From Aurantimonas coralicida DSM 14790 (GTDB taxonomy: Bacteria > Pseudomonadota > Alphaproteobacteria > Rhizobiales > Rhizobiaceae): a stretch of 64,000 nucleotides of DNA. The translations under genes and the position numbers were made by a program. The notes beneath the pieces were generated by a model. It ran no database searches. It had not been told where the DNA came from and saw only the letters and a program-made list of their open reading frames with translations. This document shows positions 35,534 to 45,363 of the stretch, piece after piece (the stretch's first letter is position 1; each line of letters begins with the position of its first letter). The stretch spans positions 1 through 64,000 of the forward strand of contig NZ_ATXK01000007.1 of NCBI RefSeq assembly GCF_000421645.1. Direction: 5' to 3'.

Positions 35534-36136
35534 ATGGACGCCGATCTTTCCATCCTGGTCTTCGACGAAAATGCCGTTCGTGCCGCGATCATCGAGGCGG
35601 GACTGCGCGAGGCCGGACATCGGCGGGTGGCCGTCGTCAGGGAAATCCTCGGCCTTGTGAAACGCATCGAGACGGTTCAGCCGGACGTGATCGTCGTGGA
35701 CCTTGAAAACCCCAACCGGGACCAGCTGGAACACTTCTTCCAAGTCTCCCGCTTGGTGAAGAAGCCGGTGGCGATGTTCGTCGACCGCTCCGACGCCGGC
35801 GCGATCGAGGCGGCCGTCGATGCCGGCGTCTCGGCCTATATCGTCGACGGGCTCAGGAAGGAGCGCGTCAAGCCGATCCTCGACATGGCGATCTCGCGCT
35901 TCAATGCCTTCTCCCGGCTGTCCAGCGAACTGGCGGAAGCGCGCTCGGAACTGGCCGAGCGCAAGGTGATCGAACGCGCCAAAGGCATTCTGATGAAACT
36001 GAAGAAGCTGGACGAGCCTGCAGCTTACGCGCTCCTGCGTCGAACGGCGATGAACGAGAACCGGAAGATCGCCGACGTCGCCCAGGGCCTCGTCAGCGCC
36101 TATTCGCTGTTGGGAGATGCCCGTGACGAAGCTTGA
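35534..36136 (+). CDS. nasT: NasT-type ANTAR antiterminator
   Basis: 200 residues. The N-terminal half is a response-regulator-like receiver domain (LSILVFDENAVRAAIIEAGLREAG, PDVIVVDLENPNRDQLEH). The C-terminal ANTAR domain spans about 130-190: LAERKVIERAKGILMKLKKLDEPAAYALLRRTAMNENRKIADVAQGLV. ANTAR proteins bind paired RNA hairpins with A-x-x-G loops in leader RNAs and prevent terminator formation. A matching leader lies downstream at 37455-37572. The gene overlaps nasS, its usual partner, which holds NasT inactive without nitrate. ATG 35534 fits the normal family length. Confidence 0.92.
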   Translation: MDADLSILVFDENAVRAAIIEAGLREAGHRRVAVVREILGLVKRIETVQPDVIVVDLENPNRDQLEHFFQVSRLVKKPVAMFVDRSDAGAIEAAVDAGVSAYIVDGLRKERVKPILDMAISRFNAFSRLSSELAEARSELAERKVIERAKGILMKLKKLDEPAAYALLRRTAMNENRKIADVAQGLVSAYSLLGDARDEA

Positions 36137-37289
36137 GAGCGTGCGCCTCGGCTATCTGCCGCTGCTCGACAGCGCCGTGCTGCTGGTTGCGGCGAAGCTC
36201 GGCATTGCCGAGGAACGCGGCCTCGATCTCACCCTCTTCCGGGAAACCTCCTGGGCGACGATCCGCGACCGGATGGGGGTCGGCCAGTTCGACGCCGCAC
36301 ACATGCTGGCGCCGATGCCGATCGCGGCCAATCTGGGCATTGGCCCGCTCGCCGTTCCGATGATCGCGCCGATGGTGCTGGCGCTCGGCGGCAATGCCGT
36401 CACTGTCTCCACCGCCCTCGCCCGGGCCATGGCCGATACGGCTGGCGACGATCCGGATGGACCTGCGGCGGCGGGTGCCGCGCTGAAATCAGTCCTCGGC
36501 CGGCGGGCGCAGGCGGGGCGCAGCCATGCCCGCCTTGCTGTCGTCCATCGCTATTCGAGCCACAATTACGACCTGCGGTACTGGCTTGCCGCGTCCGGGA
36601 TCGAACCGGACCGGGACGTGGAGATCACCGTCGTGCCGCCGTCACTGGTGCCCGACGCCCTCGCCGCCGGGGAGATCGACGGATTCTGCGTCGGCGAACC
36701 CTGGAGCACGGTGGCCGTGCGGCGCGGTGTCGGGCGGATCGTCACCAGCAAGGCGGAGATCTGGCGGCGCGGCCCGGAAAAGGTGCTCGGCGTCTCCGCC
36801 GCGTTTGCAAGGGACCGCCCGGAAACCCTGTCCCGGCTCATCGACGCCCTCGGCCAGGCCGCGCTCTGGTGCGCTGATCCGGCCAATCATCGCGCTCTCG
36901 CGGATTTGCTGGCCCTGCCGCAACATCTCGGCGTGCCGTCGGATGATCTCATGGCGGGGATAACGGGTCGCATGGAAGTCGCTCCCGGACGATTCCGGGC
37001 CATCGAGGGCTTCATGATCTTCGCCGGTGGGGACGCCAATCGTCCTGACCGGAGCCATGGCCGGTGGCTTTATCGTCAGATGGCACGTTGGGGCGACGTC
37101 CGCTTCTGCGAAACCGGGCTGGCCATCGCCGGCCGGACATTCCGCCCGGATCTCTTCGACGAGGCACGAGGAGATCCAAAGCCCACTGCCGCACAAGATG
37201 AAGATGCGGACGAGGATGGACCGTCCTCCATCACGGACCGTCCGGCGGGCCTTTTTGATGCAGAAACCGGCGATCCGCATGAGACATGA
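36117..37289 (+). CDS. nasS: NasS-type cytoplasmic nitrate sensor
   Basis: About 390 residues of the NrtA/CmpA solute-binding fold but without a signal peptide, so it is cytoplasmic, as expected for NasS. Conserved blocks are LGYLPLLDSAVLLVAAKLGI, TSWATIRDRMGVGQFDAAHML (about 42-62), YSSHNYDLRYWLAASGI (about 143-159), GEIDGFCVGEPW and RWLYRQMARWGDVRF. NasS binds nitrate and then releases NasT. It overlaps nasT by 20 bases. ATG 36117 is used, but GTG 36123 with GGGAG six bases before it may be the true start. The last ~50 residues are acidic and unusual. Confidence 0.9.
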   Translation: MPVTKLESVRLGYLPLLDSAVLLVAAKLGIAEERGLDLTLFRETSWATIRDRMGVGQFDAAHMLAPMPIAANLGIGPLAVPMIAPMVLALGGNAVTVSTALARAMADTAGDDPDGPAAAGAALKSVLGRRAQAGRSHARLAVVHRYSSHNYDLRYWLAASGIEPDRDVEITVVPPSLVPDALAAGEIDGFCVGEPWSTVAVRRGVGRIVTSKAEIWRRGPEKVLGVSAAFARDRPETLSRLIDALGQAALWCADPANHRALADLLALPQHLGVPSDDLMAGITGRMEVAPGRFRAIEGFMIFAGGDANRPDRSHGRWLYRQMARWGDVRFCETGLAIAGRTFRPDLFDEARGDPKPTAAQDEDADEDGPSSITDRPAGLFDAETGDPHET

Positions 37290-37454
37290 GCACATCGCCT
37301 GATCGGATCCATGGCGATCTGCACAACAAATATACAGACTTTGGAAAAGTTCAAAAAAACCGCAAAAACGCATCCTGCCGCGTTGCAACATCGCCGCTGC
37401 GGCAGTAAGAATGGTCGCCAGAGACCGGATGACTGATCCGTCTCCCATTATCTC

Positions 37455-37572
37455 CCGGCAACGCTTGCCGGCATCATAGGCGCCCAATGGCGGGCGCACC
37501 GGCAAGGCTGCCGACTTCGTTTTCATGCGCTTCCGAGGCTTCGGAGCGACAACGGGTCGGGCAGCCTTTTTT
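37455..37572 (+). promoter_or_regulatory. ANTAR-type leader RNA controlling the nitrate operon
   Basis: Three structures are visible between nasS and nrtA. P1: CCGGC, loop AACGCTT, GCCGG (37455-37471). P2: GCGCCC, hexaloop AATGGC, GGGCGC (37480-37497). Both loops have A at position 1 and G at position 4, the ANTAR recognition rule, although the P1 loop is seven bases. CTTGCCGG (37464-37471) can also pair with CCGGCAAG (37499-37506), and that 3' strand overlaps the 5' arm of the terminator starting at 37504. So pairing choices are mutually exclusive, as expected for NasT antitermination of the operon. Confidence 0.7.
37504..37572 (+). terminator. Leader terminator upstream of nrtA
   Basis: AAGGCTGCCGAC (37504-37515) pairs with GTCGGGCAGCCTT (37556-37568) with one bulged G, followed by six T (37567-37572). 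The 40-base loop holds a second small hairpin (TCCGA, GGCT, TCGGA). It lies 58 bases before the nrtA start, so it would stop transcription unless NasT acts. Confidence 0.75.
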
Positions 37573-37630
37573 CATTTCAACGATCAGCAACGCCGGCGCG
37601 GCATGCCCGGCGAACGGGGACGCTTACGCC

Positions 37631-39013
37631 ATGGCCAGCATCATCGCAGTCTCTCGCCGAACCCTTCTTGGCTGCACGGGAGCGTTTGCCGTCCTGGCCG
37701 CCTCGCCTGCGTCGGCCGGCATGCTGCCGGTCGAGAAGGACGAACTGACCTTCGGCTTCATCAAGCTCACCGACATGGCACCGCTCGCCATCGCCAAGGA
37801 GATGCACTTCTTCGAGGATGAGGGCCTGTACGTCACGATCGAGCCCCAGGCCAACTGGAAGGTGCTGCTCGACCGCACCATCACCGGCGAGCTCGACGGC
37901 GCCCACATGCTGGCCGGCCAGCCCCTGGCGGCGACGATCGGCTACGGCACCAAGGCGCATATCGTCACGCCGCTCTCCATGGATCTGAACGGCAACGGCA
38001 TCACCGTCTCGAACGACGTCTGGGCGGAGATGAAGACGCACATCCCGGCGGGCCCCGACGGCAAGCCGGAGCATCCGATCTCGGCTGCCGCGCTTGCACC
38101 GGTGGTCGAGCAGTACCGCTCGGCCGGCAAGACCTTCAACATGGGGATGGTGTTCCCGGTCTCGACCCACAATTACGAGCTGCGCTACTGGCTTGCGGCC
38201 GGCGGGCTCAACCCCGGCTATTATTCGCCGAGCGACACCTCCGGCCAGATCGACGCCGAGGTGCTCCTGTCGGTCACCCCGCCGCCGCAGATGCCGGCGA
38301 CGCTCGAGGCCGGCACCATCCAGGGCTATTGCGTCGGCGAACCGTGGAACCAGCAGGCGGTGTTCAAGGGCATCGGCGTGCCGGTGATCACCGACTACGA
38401 GATCTGGAAGGACAATCCCGAGAAGGTCTTCGGGATGACGGCGGCCTTCGTCGAGGAAAACCCGAACACCGCGATCGCCGTCACCAAGGCGCTGATCCGC
38501 GCCGGCCAGTGGCTCGATGCCGATGGCGGCGCCAATCGCCGGCAGGCGGTCGAGATCCTGTCGCGACCCGAATATGTCGGGGCCGATCCCGAGGTCATCG
38601 CCAACTCGATGACAGGCACCTTTGAATACGAGAAGGGCGACACGCGCGAAGCGCCGCACTTCAACGTCTTCTTCGACAAGTTCGCGACCTACCCCTTCTA
38701 CTCGGATGCGGTCTGGTACCTCACCCAGATGCGCCGCTGGGGCCAGATCTCCGAGGAAAAATCCGATGCCTGGTACGCGGAGACCGCGGCGTCGGTCTAC
38801 CGGCCCGACATCTACCGCCAGGCTGCGGAATCCCTCGTCGAGGACGGCTATCTGGACCCGTCCGCAGTGCCCGACACCGATGGCTACAAGCCGGCGACGG
38901 CCGAGTTCATCGACGGCGTCGAATATGAGGGGCGCAAGCCGAACGAATATCTCGCGAAGTTCGAGATCGGGCTGAAGGGCTCCGAGGACGTCGCCAGCGT
39001 CGTCTCCAACTGA
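37631..39013 (+). CDS. nrtA: Nitrate ABC transporter substrate-binding protein NrtA
   Basis: 460 residues. A twin-arginine type signal ([23 protein letters not shown]) is followed by the NrtA fold: [68 protein letters not shown] and [18 protein letters not shown]. These blocks match the cytoplasmic NasS here but with an export signal. ATG 37631 directly precedes the signal; an upstream in-frame extension to the leader is not protein-like. First gene after the NasT leader, followed by the permease after 74 bases. Binds nitrate (or nitrite/cyanate) in the periplasm. Confidence 0.92.
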
Positions 39014-39087: not shown

Positions 39088-40182
39088 ATGAGTACCGCCT
39101 CCGATTTCATGGGCGACGAGCTGTCCCCCGCCGAGCGCCGGATTCTGAAGCGCGAAAAGCGGATGTCCCGGATCACACGCGCCACCGGACCGCTGACCGC
39201 GATCGGCCTCGGCTGGTCCGTGCCGGTCATGAAGATCGCTGCGGGAGACGATGCCCGCAGCAATCTGCGCGCCTTGTGGCAGAGCCTGATCGTGCCGCTG
39301 ATCGGCATCGTCGCCTTTCTCGCCGCCTGGGCCGCCCTCGCCCCGCAGGTCCAGACATCATTGGGAACGGTGCCCGGGCCGGTCCAGGTCTGGCAGCAGG
39401 TCGGCTCGCTCTATGACGACTATCAGCGCGGGCGGCAGGACCGGGTGGCGTTCTACGAGCGCCAGGAGGCGCGCAACGCCAAGCTGGTCGAACAGGGCGT
39501 GGCGGACCGCGTGAAGACCCGCAGCTACACGGGCGCTCCGACCTATCCGGAACAGATCCTGACCAGCCTCAAGACCGTGTTTCTCGGCTTCGTGCTCGCC
39601 ACCATCATCGCCATTCCGGTCGGCATCGCCTGCGGCTTGTCCGCGACAATCAACGGCGCGCTCAATCCGCTGATCCAGGTCTTCAAGCCGGTGTCGCCGC
39701 TGGCCTGGCTGCCGATCGTCACGATGATCGTCTCGGCTCTCTACGTGAACGCCTCCGACGCCGTACCGAAGTCGATGGTGGTCTCGGCGATCACGGTCAC
39801 CCTCTGCTCGCTCTGGCCGACCCTGATCAACACGGCGCTTGGCGTCGCCTCGATCGACAAGGATCTCGTCAATGTCGGCAAGGTGCTGCAGCTGCCGACG
39901 CACAAGACCATCACCAAGCTGGTCCTGCCCTCGGCCATGCCGCTGATCTTCACCGGGCTGCGCCTGTCGCTCGGCGTCGGCTGGATGGTGCTGATCGCCG
40001 CCGAGATGCTGGCCCAGAACCCCGGCCTCGGAAAGTTCGTGTGGGACGAGTTCCAGAACGGCTCGTCGGATTCGCTGGCCCGGATCATCGTCGCGGTGAT
40101 CACCATCGGCATTGTCGGCTTCATGCTCGACCGGATCATGGCTGCCCTGCAAACCGCCTTCACCTTCACGTCGAACCGCTGA
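39088..40182 (+). CDS. nrtB: Nitrate ABC transporter permease NrtB
   Basis: 364 residues. One membrane segment near residue 72-92 is followed by a hydrophilic stretch and the binding-protein-dependent transport domain (about 150-355), with EAL-type coupling region [44 protein letters not shown] (about 268-311). The final helices end [21 protein letters not shown] site precedes the ATG. The long linker around 110-145 ([24 protein letters not shown]) is usual for this family. Forms the membrane channel of the nitrate importer with the next gene's ATPases. Confidence 0.92.
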
Positions 40183-40214: not shown

Positions 40215-41975
40215 ATGGCCACTTCCCCGATGATCGAACTGGCGAATGTCTCGAAGGCCTATGGCGAGGGCCCGGCCCGCGCCGAAATCCTCGACGGCAT
40301 CGACCTCAAGGTCGCGGAAGGCGAGTTCGTCGCGATCGTCGGATTTTCCGGTTCCGGCAAGACCACGCTGATCTCGCTGCTGGCAGGGCTGATCCGGCCC
40401 GATGCCGGTCAGGTTTTGATGAAGGGCGCCCAGGTGACGGGACCCGGACCGGAGCGCGGGCTGGTCTTCCAGTCCTATTCGCTGATGCCGTGGCTCACGG
40501 TCCGCGGCAATGTCGCGCTCGCGGTCGACACCGTTTTCGCCCGCGAGACGAAGGCCTCCCGCAAGGCGCGTGTCGACCGATACATCGAGATGGTCGGTCT
40601 CGCACACGCCGTCGACCGCAAGCCGGCGGAGCTCTCCGGCGGGATGCGCCAGCGCGTCTCGGTGGCGCGGGCTCTCGCCATGAGCCCGGAGATTCTGCTG
40701 CTCGACGAACCGCTGTCGGCGCTCGACGCCCTGACCCGCGCCAAGCTGCAGGACGAATTCGCCGCGATCAGCCAGGTCGAGAAGAAGACCATCATCCTGA
40801 TCACCAACGATGTCGACGAGGCGATCCTGCTCGCCGACCGGATCATTCCCCTCGATCCTGGCCCGAAGGCCAGTCTCGGCCCGTCCTTTCCGGTCGAGCT
40901 GCCGCGCCCGCGCGACCGCTCGGCAATGAATGCCAATGACGAGTTCAAGCGCCTGCGGCGCGAGATCACCGGCTATCTGATGGATCGGGGGCGCCATGCC
41001 TCCGCCGACACGGATGCAGCGGTCTGCCTGCCCAACGTCGTCCCGATCACCCAGAAGACGACGAAGGGACCGGTGCCGGAGCTTCCGGCCGCCTATCGCC
41101 GCGCAGCGCAGTCCGCCATCGGGCGCGGCTATGTCGAGTTCTTCGAGGTCACCAAGACCTATCCGACGCCGAAGGGGCCGCTGACCGTCGTCGACGGCTT
41201 CGACATGAAGATGGAAAAGGGCGAGTTCGTCTCGCTGATCGGCCATTCGGGCTGCGGCAAGTCGACGGTCCTGTCCATGGCCGCCGGCCTCAACGACATC
41301 TCGTCGGGAGGCATTATCCTCGATGGCCGCGAGGTCAGCGGGGCCGGCCCCGAACGCGCGGTGGTCTTCCAGTCGCCATCCCTGATGCCCTGGCTGACGG
41401 CCCGGGAGAACGTCGCTCTCGGCGTCGACAGGGTCTATCCCGACGCGACGCCGGCCGAACGCCGCGATGTTGTCGAACATTATCTCCACCGCGTCGGGCT
41501 CGGCGATTCCATGCACCGACGGGCCGAAGACCTGTCCAACGGCATGAAGCAGCGGGTCGGCATCGCCCGAGCCTTCGCCCTGTCGCCGAAACTGCTGCTT
41601 CTCGACGAGCCGTTCGGCATGCTCGATTCACTGACCCGCTGGGAGCTCCAGGACGTCCTGATGGATGTCTGGAAGCGGACCCAGGTGACCACCGTCTGCG
41701 TCACCCACGACGTCGACGAGGCGATCCTCCTCGCCGACCGGGTCGTGATGATGACCAACGGCCCGATGGCCCGGATCGGCAAGATCATGAAGGTCGACCT
41801 GCCGCGCCCGCGCACCCGCAAGGCGCTGCTCGAGCATCCTGATTACTACCTCTATCGCGAACAGCTCCTGAGCTTCCTGGAAGAGTACGAAAAGGGTGGC
41901 CCCGGCGCACAGGCGGCCAGCGCCGAGACGACCGCCGACGACAAGGCCGCCGGCGCGGAAAGGGAAGCGGCATGA
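40215..41975 (+). CDS. Tandem ATP-binding protein of the nitrate ABC transporter (NrtC/NrtD-like)
   Basis: 586 residues with two complete nucleotide-binding domains in one chain. NBD1 (about 5-240): Walker [10 protein letters not shown], signature LSGGMRQR, Walker B ILLLDEP, but the switch His is Asn ([10 protein letters not shown]). NBD2 (about 305-560): [24 protein letters not shown] and a normal VTHDVDEAI. The subunits of the classic importer, NrtC and NrtD, are thus fused, without NrtC's extra NrtA-like domain. ATG 40215 is favoured by AAAGGA seven bases upstream. The stop overlaps the GAF gene (ATGA). Confidence 0.9.
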
Positions 41976-42907
41976 GCGTGATCGCGCCCGAAGTCGCCAC
42001 CCGCGCCTTTATCGAGGTGACGGAAGTATGGGTCCCCGACGGCGACCGCCTGGTCTGGTCGAGCGGCAATTATGGTTCCCTGGACGCCTTCGCCGCCGTT
42101 TCGGCGAAACAAAGCTTCTCCAGGGGCGAAGGCCTGCCCGGCCGAGCCTGGGACGAGGCCCGCCCGGTGGTGCTGAAGCAGTTCGACGGCTCCTATTTCC
42201 AGCGCGCCGAAGCCGCGAGGGCGGCGGGACTGACCTGCGCGGTGGCCGTGCCGATCTTCGCCGGAAGCGCCCTGAAGGCCGTCATCGTCGTGCTGTGCGC
42301 CGATGACGAATCGCGCACCGGTGCTATCGAGGTCTGGCGCGAGAGCGACGGTCTCCTGATGCTGGACGAAGGCTATTACGGCGCGGCGCGGCACTTCGAA
42401 TGGGTCTCGCAGCATACGCATTTCCCCCGCGGACAGGGCCTGCCCGGCGGCGTCTGGGCGGCGAACGCGCCGATGCTGATGCGCGATCTCGGCTCGGGCT
42501 ACCGCTTCATCCGCGCCGAAAGCGCCGGCAGGGCCGGCCTGACCACCGGTCTTGGCCTGCCGATCACCGTGCCGGGGGACCGGACCTATGTCCTGACGCT
42601 GCTTTCGGCCCGCGGCACGCCAATCGCCCAACGGTTCGAGCTGTGGAATGTGCGCGCCGCCGGAACGACCGGCGCCAGGGAAGCGATCCTCGCCGACGGC
42701 ATCTGCCAGCGCGAGGGACCGCTCTGGGACGACGAGACCGAGCGGCGCGTGGCGGCCTGGCAGGGACCGATCGGCGAGGTGCTGGGCACCGGCATCCCCG
42801 CCGTCAAGCACGACAATCCCGCTCTGACCGCCGGCTACGCATCGATGGTGGCTGTTCCGATCTATCGCGACGGAACGATCAGCCACGTCGTCGCCTGGTA
42901 CTACTGA
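41972..42907 (+). CDS. Double-GAF-like protein of the nitrate operon, function unknown
   Basis: 311 residues built from two similar halves of about 140 residues. Each has [19 protein letters not shown] or [19 protein letters not shown], then (A)[25 protein letters not shown] or (A)[24 protein letters not shown], the typical strands of GAF domains. A third LPGGVW-less repeat of the pattern appears near the end ([23 protein letters not shown]-like). There is no output domain, no signal peptide and no catalytic motif. It overlaps the transporter ATPase gene by 4 bases and nirB follows 11 bases later, so it is a fixed part of the operon. A sensory or regulatory role is inferred only from the fold. 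Confidence 0.75.
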
Positions 42908-42918
42908 AAGGAACGTTC

Positions 42919-45363
42919 ATGCGAAAACTGGTCGTCATCGGTGCCGGCATGGCGTCCGGCCGGGTGCTCGAGACCCTGTTCGAGGCCGATCGGGACGCCT
43001 ACGCGGTCACGCTGTTCAATGCGGAACCGCGCGGCAACTACAACCGCATCATGCTGTCGCCGGTCCTGTCCGGCGAGAAGAGCTATGACGAGATCGTCAC
43101 CCATGACGAGGAGTGGTACGGCGCGCACGACGTGACCTGCCGCTTCGGCGAGAAGGTCGTCGCGATCGACCGGGAGCGCAAGATCGTCACCGGCGCGAAG
43201 GGCGAGGTGCCCTACGATAAGCTGATCATCGCCACTGGCTCGGTCCCGTTCATCGTGCCGGTGGAAGGCCGGGACCTGCCCGGGGTCATCACCTACCGCG
43301 ATTTCGACGACACCCACGCCATGATCGAGGCGTCCGGCACGCCCGGCAGCCATGCCGTCGTCATCGGCGGCGGCCTTCTCGGCCTGGAAGCGGCGGCCGG
43401 GCTGCGGCTGCGCGGCATGGAGGTCACCGTCCTGCATCTGTCGGGTCACCTGATGGAGCGCCAGCTCGACGAGGCGGCCGGCTATCTCCTGCGCAAGGAC
43501 CTGGAAAAGCGCGGCATCACGGTGATGACGCGGGCCTCGACCCAGAAGATACTCGGCACGAACCGTGTCGAAGGCGTCGAACTGGCGGACGGGACGACCC
43601 TGAAGGCGGATCTGGTGGTCATGGCGGTCGGCATCCGCCCGGCGGCGCAGATCGCCAGGGATGCGGGTCTCGACGTCGGCCGCGCGATCGTCGTGAACGC
43701 CCAGATGCAGACGTCGGACCCCGACATCTACGCCGTCGGCGAATGCGTGGAGTTCGACGGCACGCTCTTCGGCCTCGTCGCCCCGCTCTACGATCAGGCC
43801 AGGGTGCTGGCGAAGTCGCTGCTCGGCCAGCCGGACGCTTTTGCGGTCAGGGAATTGTCAACCAAGCTCAAGGTCACGGGATGCGACCTCTTCAGCGCCG
43901 GCGACTTTGCCGAGGGCGAGAAACGCGAGGAGATCGTCCTTCGCGATCCGGCGCAGGGTGTCTACAGGCGCCTCGTGATCGAGGACGACCGGCTCGTCGG
44001 CGCCGTGATGTACGGGGATACCGCCGACAGCAACTGGTTCTTCGACCTCATTCGCGACGGCGCGCCGGTATCGGACATGCGCGAAACCCTGATCTTCGGC
44101 CAGTCCTTCCAGGGGGGTGCCCCCCTGGACCCTATGGCGGCCGTTGCAGCCTTGCCGGATGATGCGGAAATCTGCGGCTGCAACGGCGTATGCAAATCAA
44201 AGATCACCGGCGCGGTTGCCGCGGGCGGGCTGACCAGCCTCGACGAGGTGCGGGCCCACACCAAGGCCTCCGCCTCCTGCGGCTCCTGCACCGGGCTCGT
44301 GGAGCAGCTGATGGCGCTGACCCTGGGCGCCGCCTTCAATCCCGCGGCCGTCAAGCCGATGTGCCCCTGCACCGATCTCGGGCATGGCGACGTGCGGCGG
44401 CTGATCCGCGCCAAGGCGTTGAAGTCGATCCCGGAAGTCATGCAGGAGCTGGAGTGGAAGACCTCCTGCGGCTGCGCGAAGTGCCGGCCGGCGCTCAACT
44501 ACTATCTGATCGCCGACTGGCCGGGCGACTATGTCGACGACAAGCAGTCCCGCTTCATCAACGAGCGGGTCCATGCCAACATCCAGAAGGACGGCACCTA
44601 TTCGGTCGTGCCGCGCATGTGGGGCGGCATCACCTCGGCCAACGAATTGCGGGCGATCGCCGACGTCGCAGACAAGTTCGCCATCCCGACCGTCAAGTGC
44701 ACTGGCGGCCAGCGCATCGACCTCCTCGGCGTGAGGAAGGAGGATCTGCCCGCGGTCTGGGCCGATCTGAACGCCGCCGGCATGGTCTCCGGCGCCGCCT
44801 ATGCCAAGGGCCTGCGCACCGTGAAGACCTGCGTCGGCACCGACTGGTGCCGCTTCGGCACGCAGGATTCCACCGGCCTCGGCGTCAGGATCGAGAAGTT
44901 CATGTGGGGCTCCTGGACGCCCGCCAAGGTAAAGATGGCGGTGTCTGGCTGCCCCCGGAACTGCGCCGAGGCGACTTGCAAGGATGTCGGCGTGATCTGC
45001 ACCGACGCCGGCTACGAGATCCAGTTCGCCGGTGCGGCGGGGCTCGACATCAAGGGCACGGAAATCCTCACCCAGGTGAAGACCGAGGACGAGGCGCTGG
45101 AGATGATCGTCGCCCTCGTCCAGCTCTACCGTGAGCAGGGTCATTACCTGGAGCGCATGTACAAATGGCTGAAGCGGGTCGGCATGGACTCGATCCGCGC
45201 CGTCATCGTCGAGGATCCTGCGCGGCGACGCGGCTATTACGAAGCCTTCGTCCACAGCCAGACCTTCAGCCAGACCGACCCCTGGTCGGAGCGGGCCTCG
45301 GGCGCGCGCGCCAGCCACGAGTTCCGCCCGATGGCCGATCTCACCCTGGAGGCTGCGGAATGA
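42919..45363 (+). CDS. nirB: Assimilatory nitrite reductase large subunit NirB
   Basis: 814 residues. The N-terminal half is an NAD(P)H/FAD oxidoreductase (VVIGAGMASGRVLE; NAD-binding VVIGGGLLGLEAAAGLRLRG at about 152-171; PDIYAVGECVEF). Two BFD-like 2Fe-2S regions follow (CGCNGVCKSKI to ASCGSC, about 414-456; CGCAKC, about 516). The C-terminal siroheme reductase carries TCVGTDWCRFG (about 637) and SGCPRNCAEATCKD (about 676), the four Cys that bind 4Fe-4S and siroheme. It reduces nitrite to ammonium. Followed by nirD with a 4-base overlap. AAAGGAACG precedes the ATG. Confidence 0.96.
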   Translation: MRKLVVIGAGMASGRVLETLFEADRDAYAVTLFNAEPRGNYNRIMLSPVLSGEKSYDEIVTHDEEWYGAHDVTCRFGEKVVAIDRERKIVTGAKGEVPYDKLIIATGSVPFIVPVEGRDLPGVITYRDFDDTHAMIEASGTPGSHAVVIGGGLLGLEAAAGLRLRGMEVTVLHLSGHLMERQLDEAAGYLLRKDLEKRGITVMTRASTQKILGTNRVEGVELADGTTLKADLVVMAVGIRPAAQIARDAGLDVGRAIVVNAQMQTSDPDIYAVGECVEFDGTLFGLVAPLYDQARVLAKSLLGQPDAFAVRELSTKLKVTGCDLFSAGDFAEGEKREEIVLRDPAQGVYRRLVIEDDRLVGAVMYGDTADSNWFFDLIRDGAPVSDMRETLIFGQSFQGGAPLDPMAAVAALPDDAEICGCNGVCKSKITGAVAAGGLTSLDEVRAHTKASASCGSCTGLVEQLMALTLGAAFNPAAVKPMCPCTDLGHGDVRRLIRAKALKSIPEVMQELEWKTSCGCAKCRPALNYYLIADWPGDYVDDKQSRFINERVHANIQKDGTYSVVPRMWGGITSANELRAIADVADKFAIPTVKCTGGQRIDLLGVRKEDLPAVWADLNAAGMVSGAAYAKGLRTVKTCVGTDWCRFGTQDSTGLGVRIEKFMWGSWTPAKVKMAVSGCPRNCAEATCKDVGVICTDAGYEIQFAGAAGLDIKGTEILTQVKTEDEALEMIVALVQLYREQGHYLERMYKWLKRVGMDSIRAVIVEDPARRRGYYEAFVHSQTFSQTDPWSERASGARASHEFRPMADLTLEAAE

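Follow-up and report, generated by a model that had tools for sequence, protein, structure and literature searches.

The leader between nasS and nrtA in the window, the 64,000-nucleotide stretch of DNA analysed here, is a canonical ANTAR dual-hexaloop antiterminator, presumably with NasT as its ligand, an assignment made from the sequence, and its mode of action is very probably standard NasT-dependent ANTAR transcription antitermination. A preliminary description of this DNA had proposed that NasS/NasT exert nitrate-responsive antitermination by way of ANTAR hairpins and a terminator; conservation, covariation and gene order support this well, and the type of system was named rightly, but the anatomy given for it is off by one hairpin. 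The placement of nasT and nasS directly upstream and of nrtA downstream is confirmed by gene reading and domain matches, which give the following order:

35534-36136, plus strand: nasT, 200 aa from a predicted start codon, with a receiver-like domain and an ANTAR RNA-binding domain
36117-37289, plus strand: nasS, NrtA-like nitrate/nitrite sensor, overlapping nasT (NMT1_2, PF13379, 243.5 bits)
37631-39013, plus strand: nrtA, nitrate-binding protein of an ABC transporter and first gene 3' of the putative switch (NMT1_2, 316.9 bits)
39088-40182: nrtB, 3' of nrtA
ending at 41975: gene for an ATPase with two ABC domains, 3' of nrtB
41972-42907: GAF-domain protein gene (PF13185, 54.4 bits), after the nrt ATPase gene and before nirB
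3' of the GAF gene: nirB, nirD and a molybdopterin reductase gene, the reductase taken as nas-type by context

Searched as the longer mechanical ORF (P0001), nasT matched the ANTAR profile (PF03861) at 71.4 bits and Response_reg at 29.9 bits, slightly under the cut-off of 30.2. With an ANTAR protein and an NrtA-like sensor encoded beside nitrate-assimilation genes, the locus has the make-up of a NasS/NasT system. Of the named relatives found, Aurantimonas manganoxydans (L033) is the closest, its NasS being 95% identical, and nasS-type relatives were matched in 78 of the 150 genomes of the order, part of these matches being NrtA and not NasS. A genome-wide profile search gave two ANTAR matches, and binding of the leader by the second protein (contig C3) instead of NasT would be conceivable on that count; we consider it extremely unlikely, as nasT lies directly upstream, the C3 match is the weaker one (34.6 versus 75.3 bits for nasT) and the neighbours of the second gene appear, by eye, to encode a substrate-binding protein and permeases. 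By its neighbourhood this second protein (G000, contig C3, 51217-51369; L002) is AmiC/AmiR-like.

The leader spans positions 37290-37630 (341 nt), from the end of nasS to the start of nrtA, and contains these elements around the motif:

37455-37471, plus strand: upstream hairpin, most stable as 7 bp closing a CGC triloop, outside the ANTAR motif
37480-37497, plus strand: ANTAR P1, 6-bp stem GCGCCC/GGGCGC around the loop AATGGC
37500-37513, plus strand: ANTAR P2 and putative antiterminator, 4-bp stem CGGC/GCCG around the loop AAGGCT
37504-37568, plus strand: intrinsic terminator stem, 26 bp, -34.0 kcal/mol
37567-37572, plus strand: terminator U-tract (U6), read directly

The motif thus consists of two adjacent stem-loops with six-base loops and stems of at least 3 bp (6 and 4 bp), kept in relatives, and both loops have A at position 1 and G at position 4 (A1/G4). 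An ANTAR target is described in Ramesh 2012 as two hairpins with six-base loops bearing A1 and G4, the second of which overlaps the proximal arm of a terminator, and likewise by Stewart and van Tilbeurgh 2012 as two A1/G4 hexaloops with P2 over the proximal terminator arm. For the 141-nt stretch 37440-37580 the predicted folding energy is -58.5 kcal/mol (z = -3.2), and P2 taken alone is slightly more stable with 5 bp and a 4-nt loop (-6.1 versus -5.2 kcal/mol).

To place the motif among relatives we used the DNA 3' of nasS at 74 loci, namely the window and L004-L076; L001 and L003, which are the window locus itself, and L002, which has no nasS, are not among them. A strict finder, which called for a P1 of at least 5 bp and, at the 5' arm of a U-tract-bearing terminator, a P2 with A1/G4, was positive at 51 of the 74 loci, and A1/G4 was present in both loops at 48 of the 74, its presence in P2 being a requirement of the finder. 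Dinucleotide shuffling, with 20 shuffles per stretch, produced any match in 9 of 1480 sequences and the full motif in none of the 1480, and the full motif was likewise absent from 1000 dinucleotide shuffles of the 341-nt window leader. An alignment of 43 distinct sequences (alignment A1) took in only sequences with A1/G4 in both loops, and the invariance of these columns reflects that choice; five duplicates (L033, L036, L040, L047 and L064) and three loci with a P1 loop lacking A1 (L011, L017 and L029) had been left out. In this alignment 94.9% of the pair cells are kept, compared with 87.1% after shuffling, six of the ten pairs show changes on both sides, and the covariation score is 0.310 versus 0.149 ± 0.014 in shuffled alignments, while sliding the partner by 1-3 columns left 31-59% paired with scores of at most 0.100. 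The P1 helix is 99.6% paired over the 43 sequences, with changes on both sides in four of its six pairs, and the P2 helix is 87.8% paired, its three inner pairs being present in 43/43 and its outer pair unpaired in 21/43.

Because the pairs helped to choose the sequences of alignment A1, a cleaner test is provided by model R2, which was built from 33 sequences (alignment A2), none of them from Aurantimonas, Jiella or Fulvimarina; L013, L015 and L025, which belong to the window's family in the broad sense, are retained in it, and the hold-out is therefore at genus level. R2 was run on 17 and a further 23 sources. Its match in the window, at 37479-37513, scored 45.4 bits (E = 2.7e-8 in 210 kb), and 16 of the 17 held-out sources, window included, were positive, all with E ≤ 5.1e-5; the exception was L065. 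Among the 23 loci missed by the strict finder, 22 were searched with R2 and seven (L006, L007, L009, L016, L018, L037 and L046) were recovered at E < 1e-4, which brings the count to 58 of 74. The other 16 of the 74, among them L065, L019 and L051, have no clear motif by the strict finder or by R2 at E < 1e-4; L019 has only 5 nt downstream and fell outside the R2 search, and L051 has only 205 nt downstream. The L065 sequence, from Aurantimonas sp. CSK15Z-1, encodes a nasS relative (54%), and these two methods detected no ANTAR motif downstream of it.

With model R1, which includes the window, the window motif scores 49.0 bits and is the sole strong match in its own genome (E = 1.7e-7, the next being 0.09). 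Further sites in this genome were rejected as weak matches only (E ≥ 0.09 with R1), and the second-best match within the window, found opposite nirB at 43899-43927 (19.2 bits, minus strand), was taken as chance. In a search of the order under strict filters, 22 of 150 genomes, this genome among them, had a match with E ≤ 0.01. A second match to the motif occurs in some relatives, as at L106 (G127:C1:789198-789238), L107 (G005) and L108 (G024); the L106 motif precedes a 466-aa ORF that appears, by eye, to encode an MFS nitrate/nitrite transporter.

These results bear on the idea that the leader holds a plain, unregulated terminator after nasS next to hairpins that arose by chance. The terminator is strong (-34.0 kcal/mol) and directly follows a gene, which would suit that idea, but conservation, covariation and the shuffle controls all oppose it, as does the position before nrtA in one gene run with its regulator, and we regard it as most improbable.

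They also decide the register of the ANTAR motif. The preliminary description had correctly recognised the hairpin GCGCCC/GGGCGC with an A1/G4 hexaloop, which is present at 37480-37497, and the terminator before nrtA, which is strong and ends in the U6 at 37567-37572. It had, however, numbered this hairpin as P2, whereas it is the true P1; the true P2 at 37500-37513 was missed, and the hairpin that had been called P1, at 37455-37471, lies outside the motif. A leader in which 37455-37471 is P1 with a seven-base loop, 37480-37497 is P2, and pairing of CTTGCCGG with CCGGCAAG acts as the switch is very unlikely. All of these sequences exist. For the segment 37455-37471, though, the best fold has a 3-nt loop: CCGGCAA/TTGCCGG with a CGC triloop, also the form in the minimum free energy structure, is predicted at -9.5 kcal/mol, compared with -7.9 kcal/mol for CCGGC/GCCGG with a 7-nt loop, so that in this best fold loop positions 1 and 4 are not occupied by the A and G said to mark it as an ANTAR loop. 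Nor is its sequence conserved, since only L033 of the 51 loci has it with one mismatch, at base 2 of the supposed seven-base loop, and the others have more than five; the best hairpin upstream of P1 has an A1/G4 hexaloop at just three of the 51. The seven-base loop that had been offered as a possible variant of the ANTAR motif thus falls away, and the models built from relatives match 37479-37513 and not the earlier register.

As for the proposed alternative pairing, the 8 bp between CTTGCCGG (37464-37471) and CCGGCAAG (37499-37506) do exist and do overlap the terminator arm, by 3 nt. They occur in two of the 51 loci, the window and L033, compared with 0.30 expected from shuffles, but these two are near-identical. 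Forming the pairing with a shortened terminator would not be costly (-54.5 versus -58.0 kcal/mol), yet it takes only 3 of the 26 terminator base pairs and leaves 23 in place, and the hairpin that was to serve as P2 in that arrangement has no overlap with the terminator. We therefore rejected this pairing as the switch, on its presence in 2/51 loci and its effect on 3/26 terminator base pairs.

In the register adopted here, P2 overlaps the 5' arm of the intrinsic terminator. The terminator segment AAGGCTGCC (37504-37512), which pairs with GGCAGCCTT in the terminator, lies within the loop and 3' stem of P2, so that 9 nt are common to the two structures. Across 34 distinct loci, P2 loop positions 1-6 are paired with the terminator 3' arm in 32, 32, 29, 34, 32 and 32 cases and the four bases of the P2 3' stem in 32, 32, 25 and 25, an overlap that was itself a condition of the finder, although the identity of the paired bases was not. 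That identity varies with the pairing kept: loop position 3 forms A-T (18), C-G (5) and G-C (5) pairs with the terminator in these 34 loci, and loop position 6 forms C-G (18), T-A (8) and T-G (6). As the pairing is kept across loci, hexaloop and terminator therefore use the same bases. Because the window fold with P1, the terminator and an upstream hairpin (P0) is computed at -58.0 kcal/mol, compared with -30.2 kcal/mol for P0, P1 and P2, a figure that omits a hairpin able to persist 3' of P2 (-14.4 kcal/mol), termination is in these modelled folds the default state and P2 needs help, in line with the ANTAR model.

What was observed here, namely the gene order, the terminator, the bases that it shares with P2 and the two conserved and covarying hairpins, would fit a mechanism in which NasT binding, release from NasS by nitrate and read-through are taken over by analogy from other bacteria. 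When neither nitrate nor nitrite is present, NasS would hold NasT, and the leader would fold into P1 and the terminator, at which RNA polymerase would stop at 37567-37572, before nrtA. When nitrate or nitrite is present, NasS would release NasT, and the free protein would bind the A1/G4 hexaloops of P1 (37480-37497) and P2 (37500-37513). P2 would then occupy the first nine bases of the terminator 5' arm, leaving a residual terminator hairpin detached from the U-tract, and the polymerase would continue past it into nrtA and on through the nrt, nir and nas genes that follow.

The NasT sequence is consistent with RNA binding. Its solved relatives are 1s8n (an antiterminator), 6wsh and 6ww6 (EutV) and 4akk, and it aligns with EutV (6wsh/6ww6) over residues 7-187 of 200 and with 1s8n likewise over most of its length. 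The RNA contacts of EutV were taken from Walshe et al. 2022 (PMC8934654). Of the contacts given there, Lys143, Arg168, Met172 and Asn173 are kept in NasT, Lys147 is changed to Arg, Arg177 to Lys and Arg175 to Asn, the last also being Asn in 4akk; these placements are our own count on the alignment, in which the chain numbering runs 2 ahead of that of the paper.

The leader resembles several known systems. The ANTAR antiterminators of Enterococcus faecalis eutP, eutG, eutS and eutA (with EutV), Klebsiella nasF (with NasR) and Pseudomonas aeruginosa amiE (with AmiR) likewise have two A1/G4 hexaloops, with P2 over the proximal terminator arm and an ANTAR protein controlled by a signal. That signal reaches EutV through a kinase and NasR through a fused NIT domain, whereas the window encodes a separate NasS sensor. 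A NasT with a NasS is shared with Paracoccus denitrificans nasA, Bradyrhizobium diazoefficiens nas/nos and Azotobacter vinelandii nas, where leader hairpins with attenuation or read-through before nitrate genes are likewise reported; in the window, by contrast, the first gene is nrtA of an ABC transporter. In Paracoccus, nitrate or nitrite dissociates NasS-NasT and NasT binds the nasA leader (PMC3795266), and leader mutants indicate that hairpin HI is needed and that HII may contribute to attenuation (PMC5424462); hairpins that interact with NasT are reported for Bradyrhizobium leaders (PMC6759348).

The P1-P2 linker of the window, at 2 nt, differs from those of the E. faecalis eut leaders, which are longer at 5-12 nt, and shortening that of eutP to 3 nt impaired EutV induction (Ramesh 2012). 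This short linker counts against the assignment, as do the competing fold of P2 taken alone, the 16 loci lacking a clear motif and the absence of an Rfam match at gathering score. Because the 51 loci have a short loop-to-loop spacing in common, 18-25 nt throughout and 19 nt in 29 of the 51, short P1-P2 spacing is probably a trait of NasT targets.

The window leader is thus a further, ordinary member of the known NasS/NasT leaders, and the anatomy of the nitrate switch is settled for Aurantimonas and its kin; no literature naming Aurantimonas with NasT was found among the matches listed. Removing the claimed motif variant also matters in practice, as it would have misled mutagenesis: the bases to mutate are A486/G489 and A504/G507, and not those in 37455-37471. 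Rfam gave no family at gathering score for the window and nothing at the motif at gathering score for 20 loci, where its seven hits were tRNAs and a glycine riboswitch, and for this reason the alignments and models could be of use in finding further NasT targets.

Upstream of the motif, the 60 nt that precede P1 were searched for their best hairpin. Its end lies 5-12 nt from P1 in 34 of the 51 loci, compared with a mean of 8.8 and a maximum of 15 of 51 in 40 shuffles, and with similar sequences removed in 28 of 43; moving the search upstream by another 60 or 90 nt gave 12/51 and 7/51. The sequence and loop of this hairpin vary between loci, and it is often not unusually stable (mean z -1.3; z ≤ -1 in 25/51). 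Further upstream, 31 of the 51 loci carry a sigma-54 -24/-12 site, for which shuffling gives a rate of 1.8%, and the hairpin starts at the predicted +1 to +5 in 20 of the 31 (shuffles, mean 4.8, maximum 10), or in 15 of 26 in a less redundant set (3.9, maximum 8), these ranges having been chosen after viewing the data, with predicted start sites and with shuffles that preserve single-base composition only. Loci with such a sequence-free hairpin at the predicted +1 to +5 include L054, L055 and L057; at L005, L063 and L064 the promoter is so near that P1 itself begins at about +5, and 8 of the 31 fit neither arrangement.

The sigma-54 site was found in 0 of the 14 Aurantimonas, Jiella and Fulvimarina leaders, window included. 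Eleven of these 14 have the pattern TTGC[AG]N-N17-TAnn[AC]n, compared with 0.07 expected from shuffles, the pattern having been drawn up post hoc. In the window it predicts a start near 37418, and two further candidate features follow:

37383-37411, plus strand: TTGCAA-N17-TAAGAA, a sigma-70-like promoter predicted with low to moderate confidence
37421-37444, plus strand: hairpin of -10.3 kcal/mol where the leader is predicted to begin, roughly 1-3 nt past the putative start site

Protection of mRNA by a 5'-terminal stem-loop is a known idea, and for that reason we rate the 5'-terminal hairpin as a modest lead, not a finding. Tentatively, and with more doubt than confidence, we suggest that alphaproteobacterial NasT leaders start, at +1 to +5 and whatever the promoter type, with a stem-loop of fixed position and free sequence (P0), the place of which P1 takes when the promoter is closer, and that this is a required 5' element. 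If so, P0 would protect the RNA 5' end or keep upstream RNA from misfolding P1, it would be an element absent from the dual-hexaloop model, and 37455-37471 would be an extra hairpin of one lineage between P0 and the motif. P0 as a third ANTAR site was rejected as not general, the A1/G4 hexaloop being confined to L010, L017 and L020 among the 51 loci; for L014, an alternative drawing of the hairpin has the loop AACGAT.

The window matches the Rfam narK RNA (RF03032) weakly, at 13.8 bits compared with a gathering score of 43.2 (E = 6.4), and we claim no membership. We also rejected the idea, raised by the alignment from this weak match, that P0 of the window is a decayed sigma-54 promoter, since the GG-GC spacing is 8 and not 10. 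The RF03032 consensus has a hexaloop hairpin (AACGGC) followed by CGAC-AAAGAC-GUCG, the same two-hexaloop layout as in the window, and of these Rfam pairs the first hairpin only; the 3' part thus holds an unannotated second A1/G4 hexaloop hairpin. As its 5' part is, by eye, sigma-54-promoter-like (GGCaCAgcucUUGCU) and its 3' part has this second A1/G4 hexaloop, the family looks like a promoter plus an ANTAR motif.
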